A stretch of 64,000 bases of DNA from Candidatus Thorarchaeota archaeon. GTDB taxonomy: Archaea; Asgardarchaeota; Thorarchaeia; Thorarchaeales; Thorarchaeaceae. How positions within the stretch are numbered: position 1 is the first letter of the stretch; each line of letters begins with the position of its first letter. The stretch lies in assembly GCA_019057475.1 (NCBI GenBank), contig DXJO01000052.1, positions 1 to 64,000 of the forward strand. Direction: 5' to 3'. Below the pieces are notes generated by a model, which saw only the letters and a list, made by a program, of their open reading frames with translations, was not told the DNA's origin and did no database searches. Below, one piece after another: positions 39,001 to 50,889 of the stretch. The position numbers and the translations under genes were made by a program.

Positions 39001-39036
39001 TTACTTCATTGCAGTGAAGTTACTTCATTACTTCAT
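39001..39036. promoter_or_regulatory. Repeated operator, probable HxlR binding sites
   Basis: ACTTCA (39003-39008) and TGAAGT (39015-39020) form a perfect palindrome with a six-base spacer. TTACTTCAT occurs at 39001-39009, 39020-39028 and 39028-39036, and a further ACTTC-containing half-site lies near 39053-39061 beside the TATA box. Placement between the divergent regulator and methyltransferase genes indicates control of both. Confidence 0.65.
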
Positions 39037-39045
39037 ACTTTCTCC

Positions 39046-39053
39046 TTTAAATA
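39046..39053 (+). promoter_or_regulatory. TATA box, membrane methyltransferase promoter
   Basis: TTTAAATA about 54 bases before the ATG at 39107 would place the transcription start near 39078. This excludes the earlier in-frame codons from 39014 as starts. The HxlR-type boxes flank it on both sides. Confidence 0.6.
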
Positions 39054-39106
39054 CTTCACTTCTTCCCATAGTGCAGTACTTTCTGATAAATTCTCTGGTG
39101 GACTTT

Positions 39107-40012
39107 ATGATTAGAAGTAAGAAACCATACGCCTTCTACATACTCGTTGGTGCTCTTGGCGTGATTGTGATGGCAGCACTCTACTGTGTGGGTAGTGTGT
39201 GCATAGATGGGCTGTCATTCGAAACGGGACTGGGAATTCTCACGATAGCGGTTGGCGCGCTGGCGTTGAGAGAACGCGGATCTGAGAGAGGAATTATTCA
39301 TCGCCTGTGTATCTTGGTGCCTCTGGGTGCAATCATTCTGTTTCCGGTGGGACAAATCATTCACTCGGGGGTTGAAGCCTTTCTGACTATTGGACTTGCT
39401 CCGCTTGCAGTCTTGACACTCTTTGCAGTTCCTCAAGTCGCTCTAGGCATAATCTTGGTTAGGAATAATGAATTCGTGTCTGGAGAAGACAGGCCGGTAC
39501 CGGGCTCCATGTTCAGGATGATGTCAATCTTTCTCAGGGTTCGTGAACCATTCAAGAAGCCTATGCAGCGGCTGCAAAAGGTTGGACTGCAGGAGGGACA
39601 GACAGTCCTAGACTATGGGTGCGGGATAGGGAGCTATGCCATTCCTGCCTCAAAGATTGTGGGGGCGAGCGGCAAGGTCTACGCTCTAGATATTCACCCA
39701 ATGGCAGTTGAACGAGTCAAGAAGAGGGCTGAGAAGATTGGTCTCTCGAATGTTCACACGATTCTCTCGAACATTGATACAAGTCTGCCAGACAATAGTG
39801 TAGATGTTATCTTGCTCTATGATGTTCTCCAAATAATCAAGAACAGAGATGGCTTGCTACAGGAGTTCCACAGAGTGCTCAAGCCGTCAGGATTCGTTTC
39901 AGTCGACTCGGACCACCTGCGACCTGAAGAAGTTCAGGATGTCTTTGCCAGTACAGGCCTGTTCTCGCAGGTTGATTGTGAGAATGGACTGCTCAAGTTC
40001 ATGAAACTATGA
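39107..40012 (+). CDS. Membrane-anchored SAM methyltransferase
   Basis: 301 residues from the ATG at 39107. Three to four membrane helices occupy about 8-125. A class I methyltransferase domain follows, with motif I VLDYGCGIGSYAIPA, an acidic end of strand 2 (YALDIHP) and a UbiE-like LPDNSVDVILLYDVL. It probably methylates a lipid or quinone-like membrane substrate. The divergent HxlR regulator suggests inducible expression. It ends inside the convergent neighbour by 14 bases. Confidence 0.8.
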   Translation: MIRSKKPYAFYILVGALGVIVMAALYCVGSVCIDGLSFETGLGILTIAVGALALRERGSERGIIHRLCILVPLGAIILFPVGQIIHSGVEAFLTIGLAPLAVLTLFAVPQVALGIILVRNNEFVSGEDRPVPGSMFRMMSIFLRVREPFKKPMQRLQKVGLQEGQTVLDYGCGIGSYAIPASKIVGASGKVYALDIHPMAVERVKKRAEKIGLSNVHTILSNIDTSLPDNSVDVILLYDVLQIIKNRDGLLQEFHRVLKPSGFVSVDSDHLRPEEVQDVFASTGLFSQVDCENGLLKFMKL

Positions 40013-40707: not shown

Positions 40708-41898
40708 ATGCGCAGCACGCCAAATGCATTGCTTGTTCAGCCCAGATTTCCCACCCCCCGCAAGAGCAAGAACCACAAGGATGTCTTACCTATAGGGTTG
40801 CTGAAATTGGGGGCGTGGTACAAGAGCAGAGGATGGAAAGTTAGACTCGTTCATGGGAATGAATTATTGACAGACTTCGAACCGGACCATATACTGGTTA
40901 CATCCTTGTTCACATACTGGTCAGAGTATGTCGCAGAAGCAGCGCGATACTACCGATCATTGTTTCCACGTGCAAAATTGCTTGTAGGTGGCATCTATGC
41001 ATCTCTTCTGCCTGAGGACTGCAAAAGGCGAACTGGTGCAGATGAGGTGTTTGTTGGTGTGCATCCTGAGGCAGAAAAATTCGAGGCTGATTACAGTCTC
41101 CTTGATGAAGAACTGGACTATCAGATACTCCATGCGTCAAGAGGCTGCATAAGACGGTGCAAATTCTGTTTCACTTGGAAGCTCGAACCTGAGTACAAGG
41201 CGGTTTGTTCCCTTGATGATAGAATCCACAAGAACAAGGTGGTCCTTTATGATAACAACTTCCTTGCCAACCCGTGCATCAATCAACTCTTGGAGGAGCT
41301 TGCTGAAGTTCGTGTGAACCAAAGAGTAGTTCATTACGAATGTCAAAGTGGATTTGATGGACGCTTGCTGACTTCGAAACTCTCGTCGTTGTTGAAACGG
41401 GCGCGTTTCATCAATCCAAGGATTGCTTGGGACGGACGCTTTGCAGAGGTAAAGCGAATACATGAGCAGATCGAACTACTCATGGATGCTGGATACAGCT
41501 CGAAATCCATCTCAGTCTTCATGCTCTACAACTGGAACATCTCCTTTAACGAGATGGAACGGAAACGGCTGAAATGCTGGGAGTGGAAAGTCCAAATAAC
41601 GGACTGCCGCTTTCGGCCGATGCGTCAGCTCTATGATCGGTTTAATGCTAGGAAAAACCAGACAGTGCTTGACTATTTCATTCACGAAACGTGGACTGAT
41701 GAACAAGTGAAGCGATTTCGGAAGAATGTCCGGCGGCAGAATATCTGTATTCGACATGGCCTTAGGTTTCATTCTCCCATTCTTGAGCGGAAAGGTCTGC
41801 CGAAAGATGAGATCTCATATCTGAAGAATGCCCCCATCGATATGGTTAGATCTAGGTTAACTGATGCGTGGTTTCCAAGCGAAAGTCAAGCAATCTAA
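40708..41898 (+). CDS. Radical SAM protein A of a tandem pair
   Basis: 396 residues: a B12-binding-like N-terminal Rossmann part (LLVQPRFPTP, LLVGGIYASL), then radical SAM Cys147, Cys151 and Cys154 (RGCIRRCKFC). A long C-terminal region ends in a conserved RKNVRRQNICIRHG block shared with the next gene. No DxHxxG cobalamin motif is seen. The substrate is unknown. The neighbour at 41988 is a clear paralog in the same order throughout. Both run toward the PglZ/HerA operon and end just beyond its last gene. Confidence 0.82.
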   Translation: MRSTPNALLVQPRFPTPRKSKNHKDVLPIGLLKLGAWYKSRGWKVRLVHGNELLTDFEPDHILVTSLFTYWSEYVAEAARYYRSLFPRAKLLVGGIYASLLPEDCKRRTGADEVFVGVHPEAEKFEADYSLLDEELDYQILHASRGCIRRCKFCFTWKLEPEYKAVCSLDDRIHKNKVVLYDNNFLANPCINQLLEELAEVRVNQRVVHYECQSGFDGRLLTSKLSSLLKRARFINPRIAWDGRFAEVKRIHEQIELLMDAGYSSKSISVFMLYNWNISFNEMERKRLKCWEWKVQITDCRFRPMRQLYDRFNARKNQTVLDYFIHETWTDEQVKRFRKNVRRQNICIRHGLRFHSPILERKGLPKDEISYLKNAPIDMVRSRLTDAWFPSESQAI

Positions 41899-41987
41899 CG
41901 GTTGCCTGCATGAATCAATTATGTGACACGATCGATACTCTTATCAAACTAAGCGAAATCCGCTTCGTGATAACTCGGTGAGGGAGA

Positions 41988-43367
41988 TTGAAAGGAGTAA
42001 CTCAAAGGCCCGTACGGCCCAAACGCACGAGTACTCGCATTCTCCTTGTCGAACCAGAATTCCCGTTGCCTACGAAAAGCAAGAATCACAGCAACTTCCT
42101 CCCGATAGGACTACTAAAGATAGGCGCTTGGCTTGAAGATAAGAGGTTTGAAGTTGAACTAGTGCGCGGCAATAAACCAGAAGATTCACTTGACTTCAAA
42201 CCTGATGAGGTTTGGATAACATCACTCTTCACTTACTGGTCCAAGTATGTGATTGACACAGCCAAACACTACAAATCATTCTCAAACAAGCCTCGCATTG
42301 TCATAGGTGGAATATACGCTAGCCTCATGGAAGAACACTGCAAGAAGCATACAGGTTGCAATGTAGTATTCAAGGGGGTGCATCCTATCGCAGAACAATA
42401 CTATCCCAAGTATCGCTTACTCGGAAACGACCTCAACTACCAGATTGTTCACGCATCAAGAGGCTGTATTCACAAGTGCAAGTTCTGTGGCGTTCACATC
42501 ATAGAATCAGGCGGATTAATGTCCGAAAGGAGCATTCTTCCACTGATTGCTAAACCCAAGAAAGGCAGTAAGAAAATCTGTGAGATTGATCTCAAATCCA
42601 ACGATTACGTCATCGAGAAGAAAAACTTGGTTTTTTATGACAATAACCTACTGGCAAATGAGAATATAGAATCTATTCTTGAGGAGTTAGTATTTCTGAA
42701 AAAGACACGAAAAATAGGGTGGTGTGAGTCTCAGAGCGGTTTTGATGGTCGAGTCATGCAGAAGAAGCCTCATCTGGCTCTGTTGCTCAAGACGGCTGGA
42801 TTCAAGAACCCAAGAGTTGCTTGGGATTGGGGGTTGAATCAGGGGGTGAGCATCAAGTTACAGATTGATTTACTCTTGGATGCCGGTTATACATCCAAGG
42901 AAATTTACGTTTTCATGCTTTACAACTGGAGCATATCTTTCGAGGAGATGGAACAGAAGAGGATGAAGTGCTACGAATGGAAGGTCCAGATTGCAGATTG
43001 CAGGTTTCGCCCACTAGACCAAGCTTATGATGAATATCGCCCTGGAAAACGGAACCAGATTGAAGGGTACTATGTCCACGAGAAGAAAGGGTGGACCGAT
43101 GATTTGGTAAAGCAATTCCGGAGGAATGTAAGGCGTCAAAATATATGCATAAGACATGGGTTTCCGTTCTATTCCAGACAATTCGAAACAAAGCAGGCCT
43201 TGAAAGAAGAAATACAGATGGTGAAATTGGCAGGAACACTTGAAGAGAAGAAAATGGTCATGAGAGTGTTGGGCTATGAATGCTGGGACCCGATGAACAT
43301 CACCTACCCTAAAACAAGTACAGCTGGGCTTGTATCCGCTCAAACTGAAGTTCAAGAACATGTGTGA
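41988..43367 (+). CDS. Radical SAM protein B of a tandem pair
   Basis: 459 residues, paralogous to the preceding gene. Shared blocks: LPIGLLKIGAW, ITSLFTYWSKYV, GGIYASLMEEHCKKHTG, radical SAM Cys160/164/167 (RGCIHKCKFC), FYDNNLLAN, and RRNVRRQNICIRHG. It has an extra basic insert after the cysteines (about 170-215) and a longer C-terminus. TTG start at 41988 with GGGAG upstream. Its stop lies three bases from the convergent HerA-like stop. Confidence 0.82.
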   Translation: MKGVTQRPVRPKRTSTRILLVEPEFPLPTKSKNHSNFLPIGLLKIGAWLEDKRFEVELVRGNKPEDSLDFKPDEVWITSLFTYWSKYVIDTAKHYKSFSNKPRIVIGGIYASLMEEHCKKHTGCNVVFKGVHPIAEQYYPKYRLLGNDLNYQIVHASRGCIHKCKFCGVHIIESGGLMSERSILPLIAKPKKGSKKICEIDLKSNDYVIEKKNLVFYDNNLLANENIESILEELVFLKKTRKIGWCESQSGFDGRVMQKKPHLALLLKTAGFKNPRVAWDWGLNQGVSIKLQIDLLLDAGYTSKEIYVFMLYNWSISFEEMEQKRMKCYEWKVQIADCRFRPLDQAYDEYRPGKRNQIEGYYVHEKKGWTDDLVKQFRRNVRRQNICIRHGFPFYSRQFETKQALKEEIQMVKLAGTLEEKKMVMRVLGYECWDPMNITYPKTSTAGLVSAQTEVQEHV

Positions 43368-43370
43368 CCT

Positions 43371-44534
43371 CTACTCGGATCCTCCGGGTCTGCTTCTCCT
43401 TGGTGCAACCTTGATCATTAAGGATCTCTCTTCAAAGTCGTCGACAAAGACTGCCTCTCCCGTTCTGGCAATCTTCTCAATAAACACTTTCAATTCACTC
43501 CCCATGTAATCTTTCGTAAGCGCATTAAGGGCCGATTTATCGACCCGTGTTGTCATCGAATGTGATAGTATAACATCCCACTGGGAAAGAACCTCCATGT
43601 CCAGTGCTGATGGCTGTTGAGATGCTATCACCATGGATAGGCCTGGCTGGCGCCCTTCCTTTACCCATCTAATGATCCCTTCCTTTGCTAAAGACGATTT
43701 GCCAGAAGGTGCAAACTGATGAGCTTCGTCGATGAAAAGCCAGATTCTAGGCACATCTGAGGAAAGTTCCAGCTCTTCTCTTCTCCTCGCAATTGAACGT
43801 CTACTAAACAGGTCTCTCACGAGTGTGGAAACAAAAAGAGGGCGTCGTCCGTATCGGCCCGAGTGTATAACGCTCAGATCAAGAACGTTGATATGATCCA
43901 TCGAAAGAACGTCAAGAAGGCTTCGGTAAGTGCCTTCTGAGAACATACCCCATGTCTGAGCGATGTCGAGTTTGTTGGACAGTGCGTCTTTTGTGGTGCT
44001 TCCAGCCCTGCTGTCAGATCCGATTACGTCAATAAGATCTGGAATGAAGAAATTATTCCCCCACTTCTTCTTACATTTCAAATGGGCTTTTGTGATGGCA
44101 ATCCCCATGGGGTCGTTTACCCCGAAACCAAAGGTTTCACACCACCCCTCGGGAGAAACGTCACTAGGATTCAGCTCAAGTGACTTGAATTCCACGTCGC
44201 GCTTCTCCATTTCCTTGATTACGTCCTCCCCGCCATATCGTTCAACGGGGTTTCCTGGAACAAGCAAGCGAGTGGCAAACCCCCTGGCATTCATACCCCA
44301 ACTCCATAAGAGCTCATTCTGTGGCTCATTGGGTTGTGACATTGTGTGGAAGATTCCCATAGGATCCACGACCACTGCCAATGACTTACCTTGCAGCACC
44401 AACTCCTCAGCCAAGGTACCCATAGAATACGATTTCCCACTACCACGTTTTCCACAGACCACTATCACTCTACTCTTAGAGTCATCAATGTAGACATCCT
44501 CATCATTCTCAAGGTTTCTTCCAACGCGCAACAT
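43371..44534 (-). CDS. HerA-like ATPase (DUF87 type)
   Basis: 387 residues of the HerA/FtsK DNA-translocase superfamily. Walker A GKRGSGKS is at 28-35, a Walker B with FIDEAHQFAPSGK near 265-280, and an arginine-finger-like EGRQPGLSMVIASQQPSA segment with the typical sensor strand. HerA hexamers pump DNA or partner with nucleases (NurA, absent here). It is the last gene of the five-gene operon with the BrxC-like and PglZ-like proteins, its ATG one base after the PglZ-like stop. A role in a defence complex is inferred from these partners. Confidence 0.87.
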   Translation of the reverse strand: MLRVGRNLENDEDVYIDDSKSRVIVVCGKRGSGKSYSMGTLAEELVLQGKSLAVVVDPMGIFHTMSQPNEPQNELLWSWGMNARGFATRLLVPGNPVERYGGEDVIKEMEKRDVEFKSLELNPSDVSPEGWCETFGFGVNDPMGIAITKAHLKCKKKWGNNFFIPDLIDVIGSDSRAGSTTKDALSNKLDIAQTWGMFSEGTYRSLLDVLSMDHINVLDLSVIHSGRYGRRPLFVSTLVRDLFSRRSIARRREELELSSDVPRIWLFIDEAHQFAPSGKSSLAKEGIIRWVKEGRQPGLSMVIASQQPSALDMEVLSQWDVILSHSMTTRVDKSALNALTKDYMGSELKVFIEKIARTGEAVFVDDFEERSLMIKVAPRRSRPGGSE

Positions 44535-44535
44535 T

Positions 44536-45549
44536 TTATCTCACCTCTATTTCCAAGAAAGGCACAAATGACTCGTAGATCGAAACACCTCCATGAACAC
44601 CCCATTCGTTCTTCCTAAGCTTTCTGAACACGAATGGGTATTTGAGAAGCGAGTGACTGCGGCCATTCCTCTCCCATACAATGAATCTTGATCCGAAATG
44701 GCATCCTACCAAATGACGCATTCTGCTAGCTCTGCCATAATTGAATACTTCAAAGTCTGATTTGGTTCCTACAGGTGGTCGCCACCAGATCCCATGGTCG
44801 GAAGTCAAGAAGAGGTTGTAGGATAAACCTCGCCCATTGAACTCTCTAATCAACTTGGATAAGAACACTCCAAATATCTGCCTGACTATTGTGTCTACTT
44901 GAGGTCGCCCATGATACCGATGAGAGAGCTGGTCATAACCCTCTAGCAGAATCTGGATGTAGCAGTTGTCCAACTCGTGGTGGGATAGTATCTGTAGAAC
45001 CTCATCGAATTCATCGATCTGATGCATATCTCTGGGTGCGAAACCATAGAAGATACTATTTGCCAATTCGTCATGACCTTTGCGACCCCAGTGCGAAAAA
45101 CCCAATCTTCTCTGATAGCCCTTCGCGTAGAGTTCGAGGGCGATTTTCCCATTCTGTGTTATATTCCTAAAACCATTTGGGGTCGTTGTCGGACCCGGAA
45201 CCAGACATGGCCTGACTTCTGGTATGCCAATGCAGTCGTAGTATGAGAGGCCGTCAACCAAAACGAGTACAACCACATCTGCACGTGACTTGCTGACTAT
45301 GTGATTCTTCACATCAAGCTGCGTGAACATTTGCTCACAGAGCTCGAAGTAACGTTCGCATAAGCTGGAGTTCAATCGGTTGTTGAACCAGTCTGGGTCA
45401 AACCTGACTGACGGAAAGAGGCGTTTCCAGTGCCCTGCGGGCTCTGTTATCAACATCCTTCGACCGTGAAGCCGCGACAATGGGTCGTCAAGCACCCCTT
45501 TGAGATCGACATCACCTCGAACAAGAATGGAGTTCTCTAGGTAGAGCAA
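44536..45549 (-). CDS. PglZ-like alkaline-phosphatase-superfamily protein
   Basis: 337 residues from a TTG at 45549. The full phosphatase-superfamily metal set is recognisable: Asp99 in LVLVDGLSYYD with Ser102 nearby as possible nucleophile, Asp206 and His210 in YDQLSHRYHG, Asp251/His252 in TSDHG, and His319 in VHGGVSIYE. The C-terminal HGGxSxxE matches PglZ of BREX systems. It is much shorter than classical PglZ. The same frame stays open and protein-like upstream to about 45606, after an AGGAGGAGG at the end of the BrxC-like gene, but holds only ACG or ATT near it, so the true start is uncertain. Confidence 0.75.
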   Translation of the reverse strand: MLYLENSILVRGDVDLKGVLDDPLSRLHGRRMLITEPAGHWKRLFPSVRFDPDWFNNRLNSSLCERYFELCEQMFTQLDVKNHIVSKSRADVVVLVLVDGLSYYDCIGIPEVRPCLVPGPTTTPNGFRNITQNGKIALELYAKGYQRRLGFSHWGRKGHDELANSIFYGFAPRDMHQIDEFDEVLQILSHHELDNCYIQILLEGYDQLSHRYHGRPQVDTIVRQIFGVFLSKLIREFNGRGLSYNLFLTSDHGIWWRPPVGTKSDFEVFNYGRASRMRHLVGCHFGSRFIVWERNGRSHSLLKYPFVFRKLRKNEWGVHGGVSIYESFVPFLEIEVR

Positions 45550-45611
45550 GAGGAGATCATTATCAGTGATAATTGGCAGATCGTTTGGGAATGTATCCTG
45601 AATCGTTCGAG

Positions 45612-48600
45612 CTACCTCCTCCTTGATATCAAAAGCCCAATCAGATTCTTCTTGAATAATGAAAGCACATTCCTCATGAATTCGTCCCAGCTGAATTCAT
45701 CGCCCTTTTCTTCCATCTCAGAAATAACTAGTTCACTGATGTCTATCTTGCTGACATCTCTGATCTTGTCCAGAAGTCGTTTCTCTGGTCTTGTTGCCGT
45801 GCCTGCCTCAACTAGATGCGCATACCCCTTTTTCGCATCCCCTATCGCTCGTGTCGCATTGTTCACTGATTCAGAAAGCTTAGTCACCATCTCGTCATTT
45901 CTAAAGATGAGCTTTTTCATACTGTCAGAAGTATTATCCAACAAGTCAGCCGCAACAGCAATACGATTGAGTTGATCAGAGCAATCTTTCCCAAGCACAA
46001 TCGCCGCGAATCTAAGATCGGTTCTGATTTTTTCCACGTCAGTCACAAGCTCACACACATAGTGTTCCATTTTCTCACGTGCTTCCACTTGCATGTTCTC
46101 AAGGGACTCAGCTGGTCCTTGATGGTCGTACATGGATCGCAATTTGTGGTGTGGCACACCGACATCCGAGAGGATTTGTTCTATCCTTGCCTTGTGTTTA
46201 TGAAACTCCTCTCTGCGACCGAATTCGTGTTTCTTTACTTCCTTCTCGATTTCCTCGAGCTTCATCATGTATATCTCGTAGTCCGAGAGCATGGAAAGCT
46301 TCATCGATCTCATTGCTCCCACGATATCTTGATTGAGCTCATCGAGGCGGAGCTTAAATCGGTCTTCTTGATGAACATTTTCCAAGTTAATGGCTGCTTT
46401 CTGCACTTCGTTGGCATTATTCATCAATGTCAGCCAGGAATCGAATTCCTGCGCATGTCTATCAAACTCATTCATTCTTGTATGTGTTTTCGATTCTTCT
46501 ATCTCGCCATGCTCAAGCAGTATGCTGATTCTATCTTGAACACTGTCTACCTCTTCAATTTCCTCAATTTCAGTTTTCAGGCGTTTCTTCTCCTTCTTCG
46601 CACCAATGACTATCTTGTGGAACTCGGTAAGCAGTATCTGCCTGCATGACTCTAGTTCACCAACCCAGCTCACGGTTCCCTTGACTTCGGAGTTTAGATA
46701 CCGTGGCATAATCCTGCTCATGAGACTCTCCATTGTTGAGTCATCTGACTCCAACTTTCCGAGAATCTTGGTTGTGGCCACGATAAGCTTCTCTTTTAGC
46801 TTGTCCTCAACCGCTCTTAACTCATCCTCGATTGAGTCAGTTTCAGAGATTGTGGAGGCGACTTCAATGTTCAGCTTCAGAGGAAGATCAGGGATTTCAG
46901 ATATCGCAGAACTCTCTATCACTGATTTGGACTCCGACAAGTGCCCCTCTAGGCTAGTCCGCCACAAGAGAAGCGCGTTCTTTCTTTCATCTACATTCTC
47001 GATGACGCGCTCCAGAATCTCATCTACCTTCAGCACCATCCCTCGGGCACAAAGAAGTTCAATAGCCGCATTGACTTCGCGTTTGATGTAGCCTCTCGAT
47101 TTACTCTCTTTCCAGACATCAATGACTCTTACATACGGAATTTCAAATCCCTTTTTCGAGCGCTTTTCCCCTTTCTCTAGTAGATTCAGAATCAAGTCCT
47201 CTAGGGGGTGCCTTCTCAATGTTATGACTAGGCAATCCGGCTCATCTGATTCAGCATACTCTAATAGACCTGCCATCGTATCAAGCCGGTTGCTCTGTGA
47301 TTGCCATTTCTTGGCCGCCACTATTATTCCCATCTCATCTTTTGTGATTGTGAATTCTCTACCACCTTTCTTCGCAGACGGGCGCACTCTTGAATCTTTA
47401 AGCAGATTGGTATACAGAGAGAGGGTTCGCTCCCATTGACTATTCATAATCATGGTATCATACTTGGGGTAAAGCATTGAACAAAGATCGTTTACGATTT
47501 CCTTTAGCGTGGAATCGCCGAAGATCGTAAGTCGCAATGATTTGGGCGTTTCGATTGACTCGCTGAAAAGGTGTGCTAACACCAAATCACCAAGACTTCG
47601 CAAGAAATATTCAACCCTTCCGACTTCGCTCTTTGGAATAAGTTCAACATTGTCACCCAGTGCATACATCATCCCAAGCACGAAGAGAACATCAATCTTC
47701 GTTTCCGGATACAAGCGAACAATCGGGATTGGTACTTCATATCCTAGAATCTTCTGCGGATTGAGTCTAATTCGGACACGATTTTTCTCAACGACAATGC
47801 TGCCATGGCTTGTGCTGGCCATTGTAAGGTCAAGAAGAATATCAACCACGATGCCTTCGAAGCTTTCCTCAATTAAGTCGTCTTCGTCGGCAGTCACAGT
47901 GATAAGTGCTTGACGAAATGGGTACCTTTCGCTAAACGCGCCCTCTTGAATGGTGCGGAATCCTCCCGAGTCTAGGTGCTCTGTTTCGATGGAACGCCAA
48001 GCGTTGGATATTTGCGCTCCTTTAGCTTCAGGAAATAGCCGAGGGATAATCCATGTTGAAAAAGATTGGAGGGCGTGACAAATCTGTTCATCAGTCCGAG
48101 CATAGACTCGCATGAAGTTCCTGAGCATCCGATCGTACGAAGGCTGGATTGCAGTATCATCAGTTGCAAACGCAGTTAATGTGAAGCCCTCGGAAAGCTC
48201 CACTATCATCTCCCCATAGAATTTGATCCTCACTTCTTCAAACGTCTTCTTGAATCCGTATTTCTCGATTGTTTGACCATTGCAGCCGTACATGGGATAT
48301 GCCGCAAGAAGTTTAATGAGACCTCCTCGATCTGCCTTTCCTTGAACCGCATCAAGTTGAAGCATATTACGAGTAGCCGAAACAAGCTGGGAATTCTTTG
48401 CAGAAATGAGATATCCATTAAGGAAATCATCGATCAGATCAATGGGTGTGTAGATCTTTTGCTTTTGAATGTAATTCTCAGCTACCCGTTTGAATGCCTC
48501 GATGACCCCTCTTGGACCTGCTCCTAATCCTCTTTTAAAACAGATCTGGGCAATGCTATCAAGAGTTTCAGACTCGACAACCTGCATCGCTGGAAATGAG

Positions 48601-49466
48601 AATATATCCGAGTACTTAGACCATAACTGGGTCGGGAACTGTCGGCTGTAGATATCTTCACACTGTACATAGATCTTGCGCGCCTTCATCCTATCGACTA
48701 TATCTGAACGCTGATCCAACAACAAAGTTAGTGTAGTCATTGGTATTCCAAAGACGATGCCATACATGCCCTTGCGGGAAATCAATCCATTGGCCAAGGC
48801 ATACAGATCTTCGTAGAATCGTGGCAAGCTCTCATAGCTATCCACAGTCCTCTGGAGTTCGTCTGTGAAGACTACCAGACCTGAATACCCTCCCTCCAAA
48901 GCTATGTTAGTCACCTCATCCATGAATCTGAGAATATCCGCGGGAGTTACGGATGTCAAGCGTGCAATCTCAGCTTTAGTGAGGTTTTCGAGAAGTTTCT
49001 GAGCATTCGCATCTATTTTCCTAGCAATTGATTCCAAGCTCTTATTCCTGATTTTCCCATATAGGGCGTCGAGCCTCTTCTTGAGTGCTGGTTTTCGACT
49101 GAACTCAAATCGACACCATCCATATATTCCGTCCACGAGTTCACCCGTACTCATCCAGGAGAAGGGAGGCACAGCAAGTATTCCCTCCCCCCTACAGCCC
49201 GCCCAGAGATGCACTAAGAAACTGGTCTTGCCATATCCGTAGTCACCAATGACTGCACCCACTGCAGCGCTCTTGTTTTGAGTAACCCATTTTACAAGAT
49301 TGTTGAAAACGGCATCGGATTCTCCGATTTCTATGTGAGTTGCATTGTGGACCTCATATATCCTCTTCACATCCGCTGGGATCTTTCTTAGCTGCTCGGC
49401 TTCAAACGTAGCAATGATCGTTTCCTTATCCCTGATTACCTTCAAGTTATCCAAAAAATTATTCAT
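45612..49466 (-). CDS. BrxC-like large P-loop ATPase
   Basis: 1284 residues. An N-terminal STAND/AAA-type ATPase has Walker A GDYGYGKT at 74-81 and Walker B VVFTDELQ at 198-205, as in BrxC/BrxD-type ATPases. A long middle region (about 400-900) has wHTH-like segments. The C-terminal third is coiled coil (about 900-1250). Size and layout resemble BrxC, the central ATPase of BREX phage defence. It overlaps the small P-loop gene by four bases upstream and is followed by a PglZ-like gene. Family assignment is by architecture and neighbour, not a profile. Confidence 0.7.
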   Translation of the reverse strand: MNNFLDNLKVIRDKETIIATFEAEQLRKIPADVKRIYEVHNATHIEIGESDAVFNNLVKWVTQNKSAAVGAVIGDYGYGKTSFLVHLWAGCRGEGILAVPPFSWMSTGELVDGIYGWCRFEFSRKPALKKRLDALYGKIRNKSLESIARKIDANAQKLLENLTKAEIARLTSVTPADILRFMDEVTNIALEGGYSGLVVFTDELQRTVDSYESLPRFYEDLYALANGLISRKGMYGIVFGIPMTTLTLLLDQRSDIVDRMKARKIYVQCEDIYSRQFPTQLWSKYSDIFSFPAMQVVESETLDSIAQICFKRGLGAGPRGVIEAFKRVAENYIQKQKIYTPIDLIDDFLNGYLISAKNSQLVSATRNMLQLDAVQGKADRGGLIKLLAAYPMYGCNGQTIEKYGFKKTFEEVRIKFYGEMIVELSEGFTLTAFATDDTAIQPSYDRMLRNFMRVYARTDEQICHALQSFSTWIIPRLFPEAKGAQISNAWRSIETEHLDSGGFRTIQEGAFSERYPFRQALITVTADEDDLIEESFEGIVVDILLDLTMASTSHGSIVVEKNRVRIRLNPQKILGYEVPIPIVRLYPETKIDVLFVLGMMYALGDNVELIPKSEVGRVEYFLRSLGDLVLAHLFSESIETPKSLRLTIFGDSTLKEIVNDLCSMLYPKYDTMIMNSQWERTLSLYTNLLKDSRVRPSAKKGGREFTITKDEMGIIVAAKKWQSQSNRLDTMAGLLEYAESDEPDCLVITLRRHPLEDLILNLLEKGEKRSKKGFEIPYVRVIDVWKESKSRGYIKREVNAAIELLCARGMVLKVDEILERVIENVDERKNALLLWRTSLEGHLSESKSVIESSAISEIPDLPLKLNIEVASTISETDSIEDELRAVEDKLKEKLIVATTKILGKLESDDSTMESLMSRIMPRYLNSEVKGTVSWVGELESCRQILLTEFHKIVIGAKKEKKRLKTEIEEIEEVDSVQDRISILLEHGEIEESKTHTRMNEFDRHAQEFDSWLTLMNNANEVQKAAINLENVHQEDRFKLRLDELNQDIVGAMRSMKLSMLSDYEIYMMKLEEIEKEVKKHEFGRREEFHKHKARIEQILSDVGVPHHKLRSMYDHQGPAESLENMQVEAREKMEHYVCELVTDVEKIRTDLRFAAIVLGKDCSDQLNRIAVAADLLDNTSDSMKKLIFRNDEMVTKLSESVNNATRAIGDAKKGYAHLVEAGTATRPEKRLLDKIRDVSKIDISELVISEMEEKGDEFSWDEFMRNVLSLFKKNLIGLLISRRR

Positions 49467-49963
49467 TGTATCACCTCACAAGCTCTCACTAATTCCCATA
49501 GAGTATCATACTTCCTCTCGGGCACGAATAAATCGATCTTGAACAGATTGGAGCGTGCAATTGCAACGTCTTCTTGCGTAAGCTCAAGTTGGATCGCCCA
49601 CACATCATCTTCAACTCTCTTATCGCTAAGAGCAACAATCTGTTCAATTCCCTGAATTCTCATTTGGTTCAATATCCTCCTTGTGAACTCCCGCGAGTAC
49701 TCAAAGTCATCCAGAATTGCAGCCTCGGCGCCAATAGGCACACCCTTGAACGACTTGTAATAGCCACAGTTCCATGACCGAGCAAGAAGCCAACCCAAGA
49801 ATGTCTTGCCAACGCCGAAGTCCCCGTACACATTCAAGATAGCACCCCGACCGGGGCCTCTAGCATCTTGAACTTGCTTCAGTGTGCTCCGCTGGGAATC
49901 GGTCAACCAGTCTTCATTGAAGTGTTCTTTTATGAGGTCAATTGCACGGGTGAAAGCACTCAT
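49463..49963 (-). CDS. Small P-loop ATPase of the PglZ/HerA operon
   Basis: 166 residues from the ATG at 49963. Walker A GDFGVGKT at 47-54 and a Walker B-like AAILDDFEY near 86. It is a single compact nucleotide-binding domain without lid extensions. Its start overlaps the stop of the preceding gene (TAATG) and its stop overlaps the BrxC-like start (ATGA), showing translational coupling. Probably a loader or switch for the large ATPase; no family recognised. Confidence 0.75.
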   Translation of the reverse strand: MSAFTRAIDLIKEHFNEDWLTDSQRSTLKQVQDARGPGRGAILNVYGDFGVGKTFLGWLLARSWNCGYYKSFKGVPIGAEAAILDDFEYSREFTRRILNQMRIQGIEQIVALSDKRVEDDVWAIQLELTQEDVAIARSNLFKIDLFVPERKYDTLWELVRACEVIQ

Positions 49964-50889
49964 TATCCCTCGCCTCCCGGATTGTCCATTGTATAGGCCT
50001 TGTCTAGGAAAACGGACCTGCCCCACTGACTAGATTGCAATCGCACATTGAAATCCATGTCTAGGACAAGGGTGAGTATGTCGTCAAATACATCCAAAGA
50101 AACTAACCCCGTCCGACAGATTTCATCTATGCTATCATCAGTCAGTAAGAGCGGAGAACCCAGCTTGAGGTTCTTTCTTCCATATAACAGATTGATGCTA
50201 AGTGTGAGTAGTTCAGGTGAACAGAAGCGACGCCCTCGAGTTGTGGTTGTGCGACCAGCAATCACTTCTAGAAACGGGGGGGTTAGCTGCCCGACCCAAT
50301 TCTTAACCCCATCAATAGCGTAATGGCTCAAGGAAATTTCCTCAGCTCCCTCAAATGATTCTTCGGCGTTGAACAGGACCTGATCGATTATGTTCTTCTT
50401 GATTATCGGTCTTGGCCGCTGTTTCCAGAGCACATCACATATCTGCTGGTAAGTCCAAGAGAACGCCCTCTCCAGGCCGCCCTCTAGTTCGTAGGCTGTA
50501 TAATGGAGGAAATGAAGTGCCTCAGCAAATAGGCTCTGCTTGAATCTAGAGAGGTACCTTACTCTCTTGCCTTCAAGGGTCAGCTCATGCAAGAATGAAC
50601 TGGAGTTTCGAATCTCTGAGATCAACCCTAGGGCTTTCATCGTTTTCAAGTTTTTCCTCAAATAGTTTCTTTGCTGTACAGTTCTGAGTGTGGGCCAAAG
50701 CTGATTGCCGATCTGAGACCAGATTTCCGTGGTGTCAAGAAGACATTCTTCATCAAGGAGCTGGAGTATTGCCTTCACAGCAGCTGGTTTGACATTTTGT
50801 TCAATGTGCAGCTTGGGACTAGGCAATGTGATTCCCCCGGCCAAATGGTTTCTAATGTGGTAACAACTAGCGAAACCATCAAAGGCCAC
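49963..50889 (-). CDS. Winged-helix protein of the PglZ/HerA operon
   Basis: 308 residues, GTG start. The N-terminal half has helix-turn-helix character (TVQQRNYLRKNLKTMKALGLI near 65-90 and the segment FLHELTLEGKRVRYLSR). The rest is helical with no catalytic motif or transmembrane segment. First gene of the operon. It could be the recognition or regulatory subunit, in the position BrxA or BrxB-like proteins take in BREX, but sequence similarity to those was not evident to me. Confidence 0.65.
   Translation of the reverse strand: MAFDGFASCYHIRNHLAGGITLPSPKLHIEQNVKPAAVKAILQLLDEECLLDTTEIWSQIGNQLWPTLRTVQQRNYLRKNLKTMKALGLISEIRNSSSFLHELTLEGKRVRYLSRFKQSLFAEALHFLHYTAYELEGGLERAFSWTYQQICDVLWKQRPRPIIKKNIIDQVLFNAEESFEGAEEISLSHYAIDGVKNWVGQLTPPFLEVIAGRTTTTRGRRFCSPELLTLSINLLYGRKNLKLGSPLLLTDDSIDEICRTGLVSLDVFDDILTLVLDMDFNVRLQSSQWGRSVFLDKAYTMDNPGGEG

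Follow-up and report, generated by a model that had tools for sequence, protein, structure and literature searches.

How does a predicted defence operon that carries no DNA methyltransferase tell the DNA of its host from that of an invader? The question is raised by five minus-strand genes (43371-50889) of a Candidatus Thorarchaeota archaeon (assembly GCA_019057475.1, contig DXJO01000052.1, positions 1 to 64,000; this whole stretch of 64,000 nucleotides is referred to as the window), which encode a winged helix-turn-helix (wHTH) protein, a small P-loop ATPase, a BrxC-like ATPase, a PglZ-like protein and a HerA-type DNA-pumping ATPase. We find strong support for their being a complete, intact member of an uncommon kind of system that has been described before, BREX-Related Capture (BRC; BREX, bacteriophage exclusion). 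As to the mark, we see an even chance that the island formed by this operon and two adjacent genes (40708-43367) is a BRC restriction system in which a pair of B12-binding-type radical S-adenosylmethionine (SAM) proteins would provide the self-mark, in place of a methyltransferase, a tRNA-guanine transglycosylase (TGT) or a phosphorothioation module.

A complete BRC operon

All five genes are intact and closely packed. The wHTH gene (49963-50889, 308 amino acids) is joined by a TAATG overlap to the small ATPase gene (49463-49963, 166 amino acids), which starts at the ATG at 49963; a GTG at 50026, also listed as its start, is unnecessary since the ATG in the overlap suffices. An ATGA overlap leads on to the BrxC-like gene (45612-49466, 1284 amino acids, the C-terminal half of the protein being a long coiled coil). 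The sequence AAGGAGGAGG lies at the BrxC stop, overlapping the 3' end of this gene ahead of the PglZ-like gene (44536-45603), and the HerA gene (43371-44534, 387 amino acids) begins one base past the PglZ stop. The PglZ-like gene is preceded by a strong ribosome-binding site, yet has no ATG, GTG or TTG where its homologues begin (45549-45627, minus strand). The TTG at 45549 is an unlikely start because homologues align approximately 20-25 residues farther upstream, an invariant proline included; this upstream alignment and the strong ribosome-binding site suggest that the gene probably uses a non-standard start near 45603, perhaps the ATT at 45603. An assembly error is a possible alternative reason for the missing standard start.

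HerA gave a clear profile match (PF01935, E = 1.3e-9; PADLOC HerA, 4e-22) and is 47-59% identical to the HerA proteins of other BRC loci. The large ATPase matched BrxC_BrxD (PF10923) with E = 4.5e-4, under the cut-off, which its Haloplanus homologue clears (2.3e-6); it has full-length homologues at 22-27% identity, did not match DUF6079 itself in a hidden Markov model (HMM) search, and is best classed, on its sequence, as BrxC-like but divergent. The PglZ-like protein, a putative phosphatase or nuclease, is short, without the extra domains of BREX PglZ, and matched PF08665 below threshold (E = 3e-3), but the alkaline-phosphatase-type metal and nucleophile residues (D99, T121 or T123, D206, H210, D251, H252 and H319 in P0002) are invariant in three homologues. 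Its AlphaFold model is poor (predicted local distance difference test, pLDDT, 53) and still resembles alkaline-phosphatase and nucleotide pyrophosphatase/phosphodiesterase folds, a match that, given the low confidence, counts as supporting evidence only. The small ATPase shows weak BrxD/AAA matches only, with a Walker A motif (GDFGVGKT) retained in its homologues. Taken alone, the wHTH protein had no HMM match, DUF4007 included; profile matches to it were found in all BRC loci, and it aligns with its homologues at the corresponding place of L002, L003, L006 and L008. None of the operon proteins matched an SspF, SspG or SspH model of PADLOC, neither BrxP nor BrxL was found in the operon by gene list or HMM searches, and no methyltransferase is encoded in it, the nearest being a ubiE/PrmA-like gene (39014-40012) that is not of the DNA type by its Pfam matches. 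An initial annotation, made from the sequence of the window without database searches, had reported this tight linkage with its overlaps and one-base gap, the combination of BrxC-like, PglZ-like and HerA proteins, and the lack of a methyltransferase, all of which our searches bear out.

The same five genes occur in the same order in 14 further loci (15 with the window) from haloarchaea, Chloroflexota and a deltaproteobacterial group, at approximately 18-59% protein identity, although L078 carries one extra inserted open reading frame and L076 is cut by the contig end. This recurrence argues that the operon is no chance assemblage; co-occurrence of the five genes in other genomes had been named in the initial annotation as the check to make, and they do stay together. 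Full-length BrxC-like homologues were located by tblastn on two plasmids, of Haloplanus and Oscillatoria, the former with all five genes in order, a TGT before them and a GNAT after. A HerA alignment search located the block in Anaerolineales (L006) and in a deltaproteobacterial metagenome-assembled genome (L008), and a profile of five BrxC sequences added eight loci in 394 haloarchaeal-class genomes, more loci in Chloroflexota and, for the phylum to which L008 belongs, a second one. A single-sequence search of the genome contigs with the BrxC-like protein gave no match, and phage records and viral contigs held no relative of the operon HerA at the sensitivity used. The HerA paralogues L007, L009 and L010 lie outside such operons and were dropped. 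Within the phylum of the window the block was found in one of 228 genomes, and a divergent relative in another, G164 (L031:6534-17805), has HerA, a small ATPase, a 1409-residue BrxC-like and a 1475-residue PglZ-like protein in changed order.

BRC was described computationally by Rakesh and Krishnan in January 2026 (PMC12839542). According to that paper, it comprises PglZ, a BrxC-like (DUF6079) ATPase, an active STAND NTPase, a BrxA-like DUF4007 tripartite DNA-binding protein and HerA, and occurs in 45 taxa; a HerA/FtsK translocase is universal, the small NTPase is related to BrxB, PglZ lacks the extra BREX-PglZ domains, and a TGT and a GNAT accompany only a subset of loci and are not obligatory. 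It is the match to this architecture that identifies our operon as a kind of system already known, and on it BRC membership rests, the BrxA-like role of the wHTH protein and the BrxB/STAND role of the small ATPase being putative. Partners of the BrxA and BrxB type had initially been noted as missing; in BRC as described in PMC12839542, the wHTH and small P-loop proteins would correspond to these parts.

Marking modules beside the block

Modification modules next to the block are exchanged between BRC loci, with at least two kinds seen, a TGT and an Ssp phosphorothioation module. A DpdA-like TGT gene lies directly upstream of the wHTH gene in all eight haloarchaeal loci, in Haloplanus and in the Chloroflexota loci L076-L078. 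In the deltaproteobacterial L008/L045 the genes directly upstream are SspC and SspD (PADLOC 2e-289 and 3e-110), preceded by a gene that looks by eye like SspB/DUF4007, and in L044 the end of an SspD-like gene is found there; the block thus stands right after SspC-SspD at L045:11610-19501 and L008:1-11167 (deltaproteobacterial metagenome-assembled genome), and at L044:3-8284. From this position the BRC block is a candidate restriction partner for sspBCD, a pairing unmentioned in the main text of PMC12839542; several restriction modules are known to pair with sspBCD, and most sspBCD loci still have no known partner (PMC8092258). Three loci from cyanobacteria and Chloroflexota (L002, L041 and L042) have a GNAT-TGT-wHTH-BrxC series joined to Druantia-type genes, with neither PglZ nor HerA. 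Proteins at L002:9750-26518 match the DruE, DruF and DruL models, and L041 has an additional second, divergent wHTH-BrxC pair.

At the window locus there is neither a TGT nor an Ssp gene nor DpdB. No TGT of the BRC type occurs in the genome: the two matches that it contains, one clearly of the tRNA type, are both on other contigs, and these genes were rejected as the source of a mark. We propose instead that a radical SAM module is a third kind of marking module combined with the five-gene block.

The radical SAM pair next to HerA

Directly downstream of the operon, convergent with HerA and 3 bases away from it, are two plus-strand genes encoding radical SAM proteins of the B12-binding type (protein 1, 40708-41898, 396 amino acids; protein 2, 41988-43367, 459 amino acids), paralogues at 52% identity, of which protein 2 is the proposed self-marking enzyme. 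The pair has the low GC of the operon, and together they form an island (40708-50889) with a gene GC of 46.4% as against 49.7% elsewhere in the window (p = 2.7e-5; GC at third codon positions not different). The CX3CX2C cluster motif is invariant in 22 relatives and also present in protein 1, and PF04055 is significant in relatives of the pair. The AlphaFold model of protein 2 (pLDDT 80) shows a cobalamin-binding-type Rossmann domain and a radical SAM barrel, with fold matches to an MtaB-type model, cobalamin-binding proteins and NifB, and its best profile match in the PDB, a weak one, is the B12-dependent methylase TokK (E = 1.1e-3). These matches suggest methylation-type chemistry for the modelled enzyme.

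The Anaerolineales locus L006 offers a parallel: here too a radical SAM gene, accompanied by a degenerate paralogue, is convergent with the block. Its HerA is sister to that of the window (100/98), and in reciprocal searches between the two genomes the operon-adjacent radical SAM genes were each other's best or only match. Orthology of the two was our first thought but was ruled out, as the L006 protein sits on a separate deep branch of the radical SAM tree, so that only a parallel association of radical SAM genes with BRC is claimed from these sequences. The BrxC tree places L040, for which blastp found no radical SAM gene within the 19.5 kb read, among the radical SAM-bearing BRC loci, which therefore form one clade by HerA, though not strictly by BrxC. 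In the radical SAM tree a clade (94/85) inside a 99/97 group unites the window pair with the L065-L069 proteins and a single viral protein.

Cellular relatives

Relatives of the pair are rare in the phylum (11 of 224 genomes including that of the window, 10 of the 223 others), and no relative of protein 2 was found on plasmids. The radical SAM clade recurs in defence operons that depend on modification. In L066 and L068 the order is DrmA-DrmB-DrmC, a gene for an 870-residue protein, and the radical SAM gene; in L065 the radical SAM gene is accompanied by PbeA, PbeC and, at the place of PbeD, a gene for a small protein, in L070 by PbeC and a small protein, and in L067 by a DruE-like helicase of 2049 residues. 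With the queries and motifs used, these contigs of the DISARM, Pbe and DruE kinds, of which that of L070 is short, yielded no homologue of a methyltransferase, DndC or SspD. Radical SAM relatives also adjoin DpdB-like genes in L073 and L075, lie in virus-like segments with nucleotide-metabolism genes (judged by eye) in L071 and L072, and include one decayed copy in L074. Three genomes encode the 870-residue protein, which has no PADLOC match, next to the radical SAM gene (L066:7995-10610, L068:8913-11519 and L069:11279-13891).

Viral relatives

In the viral collection, 123 stretches encode radical SAM relatives, of which 80 were kept. Among the closest are the near-duplicates L080 and L081, in which the next gene encodes a C5-type cytosine methyltransferase; L082 has one nearby, and across all viral loci five of the nine C5-methyltransferase matches are immediate neighbours of the radical SAM gene. 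In L097 and L102 the radical SAM gene stands between a DpdB-like gene and one for a GHKL ATPase, in a cassette that is possibly a Dpd-like modification module in which the radical SAM enzyme replaces the TGT. These cassettes lie at L097:6938-11317 and L102:6935-11194, with ParB-like and SNF2-type genes near, and others occur in L096, L100 and L122. Marinitoga camini virus 1 (L046:11992-15818) has a radical SAM gene of the family that converges on a pair of genes for HerA and a nuclease.

Proposed working and alternatives

For the island we envisage that the radical SAM enzymes would modify host DNA, that a DNA-sensing scaffold checking for the mark might be built from the wHTH protein and the two ATPases, BrxC-like and small, and that unmarked incoming DNA would be pumped or held by HerA and nicked, or otherwise blocked in its replication, by PglZ. 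We infer the antiviral role, DNA as the substrate, the kind of mark and its chemistry, and each of these steps. Analogies for the exchange of marking modules are type 4 BREX, where phosphorothioation stands in for methylation, and sspBCD, which pairs with more than one restriction module. Relatives of the pair fill this position in a number of further defence systems, which suggests an as yet unrecognised means of self-marking DNA. On a broader and more tentative view, to which we give somewhat less than an even chance, the radical SAM clade would be an unrecognised class of self-marking DNA-modifying enzymes that can take the place of methyltransferases, TGT/DpdA or phosphorothioation in BRC, DISARM, Pbe and Druantia-type systems, and viruses would carry them to evade these systems.

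A number of observations weigh against radical SAM marking. The two genes are on the strand opposite to the operon and outside it, their B12-binding domain (PF02310) falls just under the Pfam cut-off, and the L006 protein belongs to the separate deep branch described above. L069, with MkoA-like and DrmC-like genes, has two methyltransferases (by eye), the neighbourhoods of the relatives come from few contigs, some of them short, and PAPS-reductase-family matches occur elsewhere in the genome, on other contigs, one of which is a possible marking enzyme. The marking function is a proposal drawn from genomic context.

It is conceivable, if rather unlikely, that the five genes work alone and without a self-mark, triggered by the replication, packaging or conjugation of an invader, the radical SAM genes being either neighbours without a link to them or a module of their own, for defence or against restriction. 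The strand of the pair and the presence of TGT and GNAT in only a subset of BRC loci, as described in PMC12839542, would suit this account, and the 123 viral stretches raise the possibility that such genes are passengers of mobile DNA. It does not readily explain why convergent radical SAM genes stand beside HerA in both the window and L006, with proteins that are mutual best or only matches, nor why relatives appear repeatedly in other modification-dependent defence operons. The same repeated neighbourhoods make it improbable that the enzymes are effectors, or act on small molecules such as a modified nucleotide: they adjoin systems that require a mark and whose usual marking gene is missing, DpdB-like genes and viral DNA methyltransferases are among their neighbours, and their presence in viruses is easier to understand if they protect viral DNA than if they are antiviral effectors. 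An effector role has a precedent in viperins, antiviral radical SAM enzymes that make a modified nucleotide, and the nucleotide-metabolism genes of L071 and L072 would agree with it.

The initial annotation had seen in the five genes a reduced or divergent PglZ-based system. The PglZ-like part of that description stands. The system is probably not without a mark, the radical SAM pair (40708-43367), which the annotated region did not include, being likely the marking module. Reduction is at odds with the match to a separate published architecture conserved across archaea and bacteria. BrxC-like and PglZ-like parts without a methyltransferase are what a decaying BREX system that has lost this gene would leave, but the five genes are intact, catalytic motifs are retained and the architecture is conserved, which makes such an origin very improbable. 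If radical SAM enzymes do mark DNA here, theirs would be a new, radical-chemistry DNA modification, and the carriage of related genes by viruses would be explained.

Comparison with known systems

With BRC the operon shares PglZ, a BrxC-like ATPase and HerA in one locus, along with a small P-loop ATPase and a wHTH protein that putatively stand for the STAND-type NTPase and the BrxA-like protein; it differs in having a convergent B12-type radical SAM pair rather than an adjoining TGT or GNAT, and the main text of PMC12839542 mentions no radical SAM, Ssp pairing or Druantia with BRC. Canonical BREX (types 1, 2, 3, 5 and 6) has the PglX/BrxX methyltransferase, absent from the operon. BREX type 4 (BrxP/PAPS reductase, BrxC, PglZ and BrxL) is similar in that it is BREX-like with the methyltransferase replaced by another marking module (phosphorothioation), but our operon lacks BrxP and BrxL and has HerA.

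SspBCD with SspE or SspFGH is related through the deltaproteobacterial blocks that follow SspC-SspD, and SspFGH has a translocase-like SspH; the window locus differs in having no Ssp genes, and the pairing seen elsewhere makes BRC one candidate for the missing partners of orphan sspBCD loci. Dpd 7-deazaguanine systems (DpdA TGT, DpdB) share the DpdA-like TGT with haloarchaeal and Chloroflexota BRC loci, and some radical SAM relatives adjoin DpdB-like genes, whereas the window locus has neither TGT nor DpdB. The effector genes of DISARM, PbeABCD and Druantia are absent from the window; in related genomes, however, the same radical SAM clade lies within DISARM loci (DrmABC with a methyltransferase, not detected in those contigs), PbeABCD loci (paired with DndCDEA, DndC not detected in those contigs) and a DruE-type Druantia locus.

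The B12-dependent radical SAM methylases resemble the pair in that one of them, TokK, gives the best profile match, a weak one, to a solved structure. The substrate of TokK, a small molecule of carbapenem synthesis, sets it apart from the role proposed here. Our search of the open-access literature brought up no publication that connects radical SAM enzymes with marking in DISARM or BRC. A radical SAM-DUF483 locus of Thermus phages, compared with the present clade by description only, is linked to DUF483 and not to cellular defence operons, but its authors suggest that it may introduce an unknown DNA modification (PMC11437467), and the idea that radical SAM enzymes modify DNA thus has a precedent.

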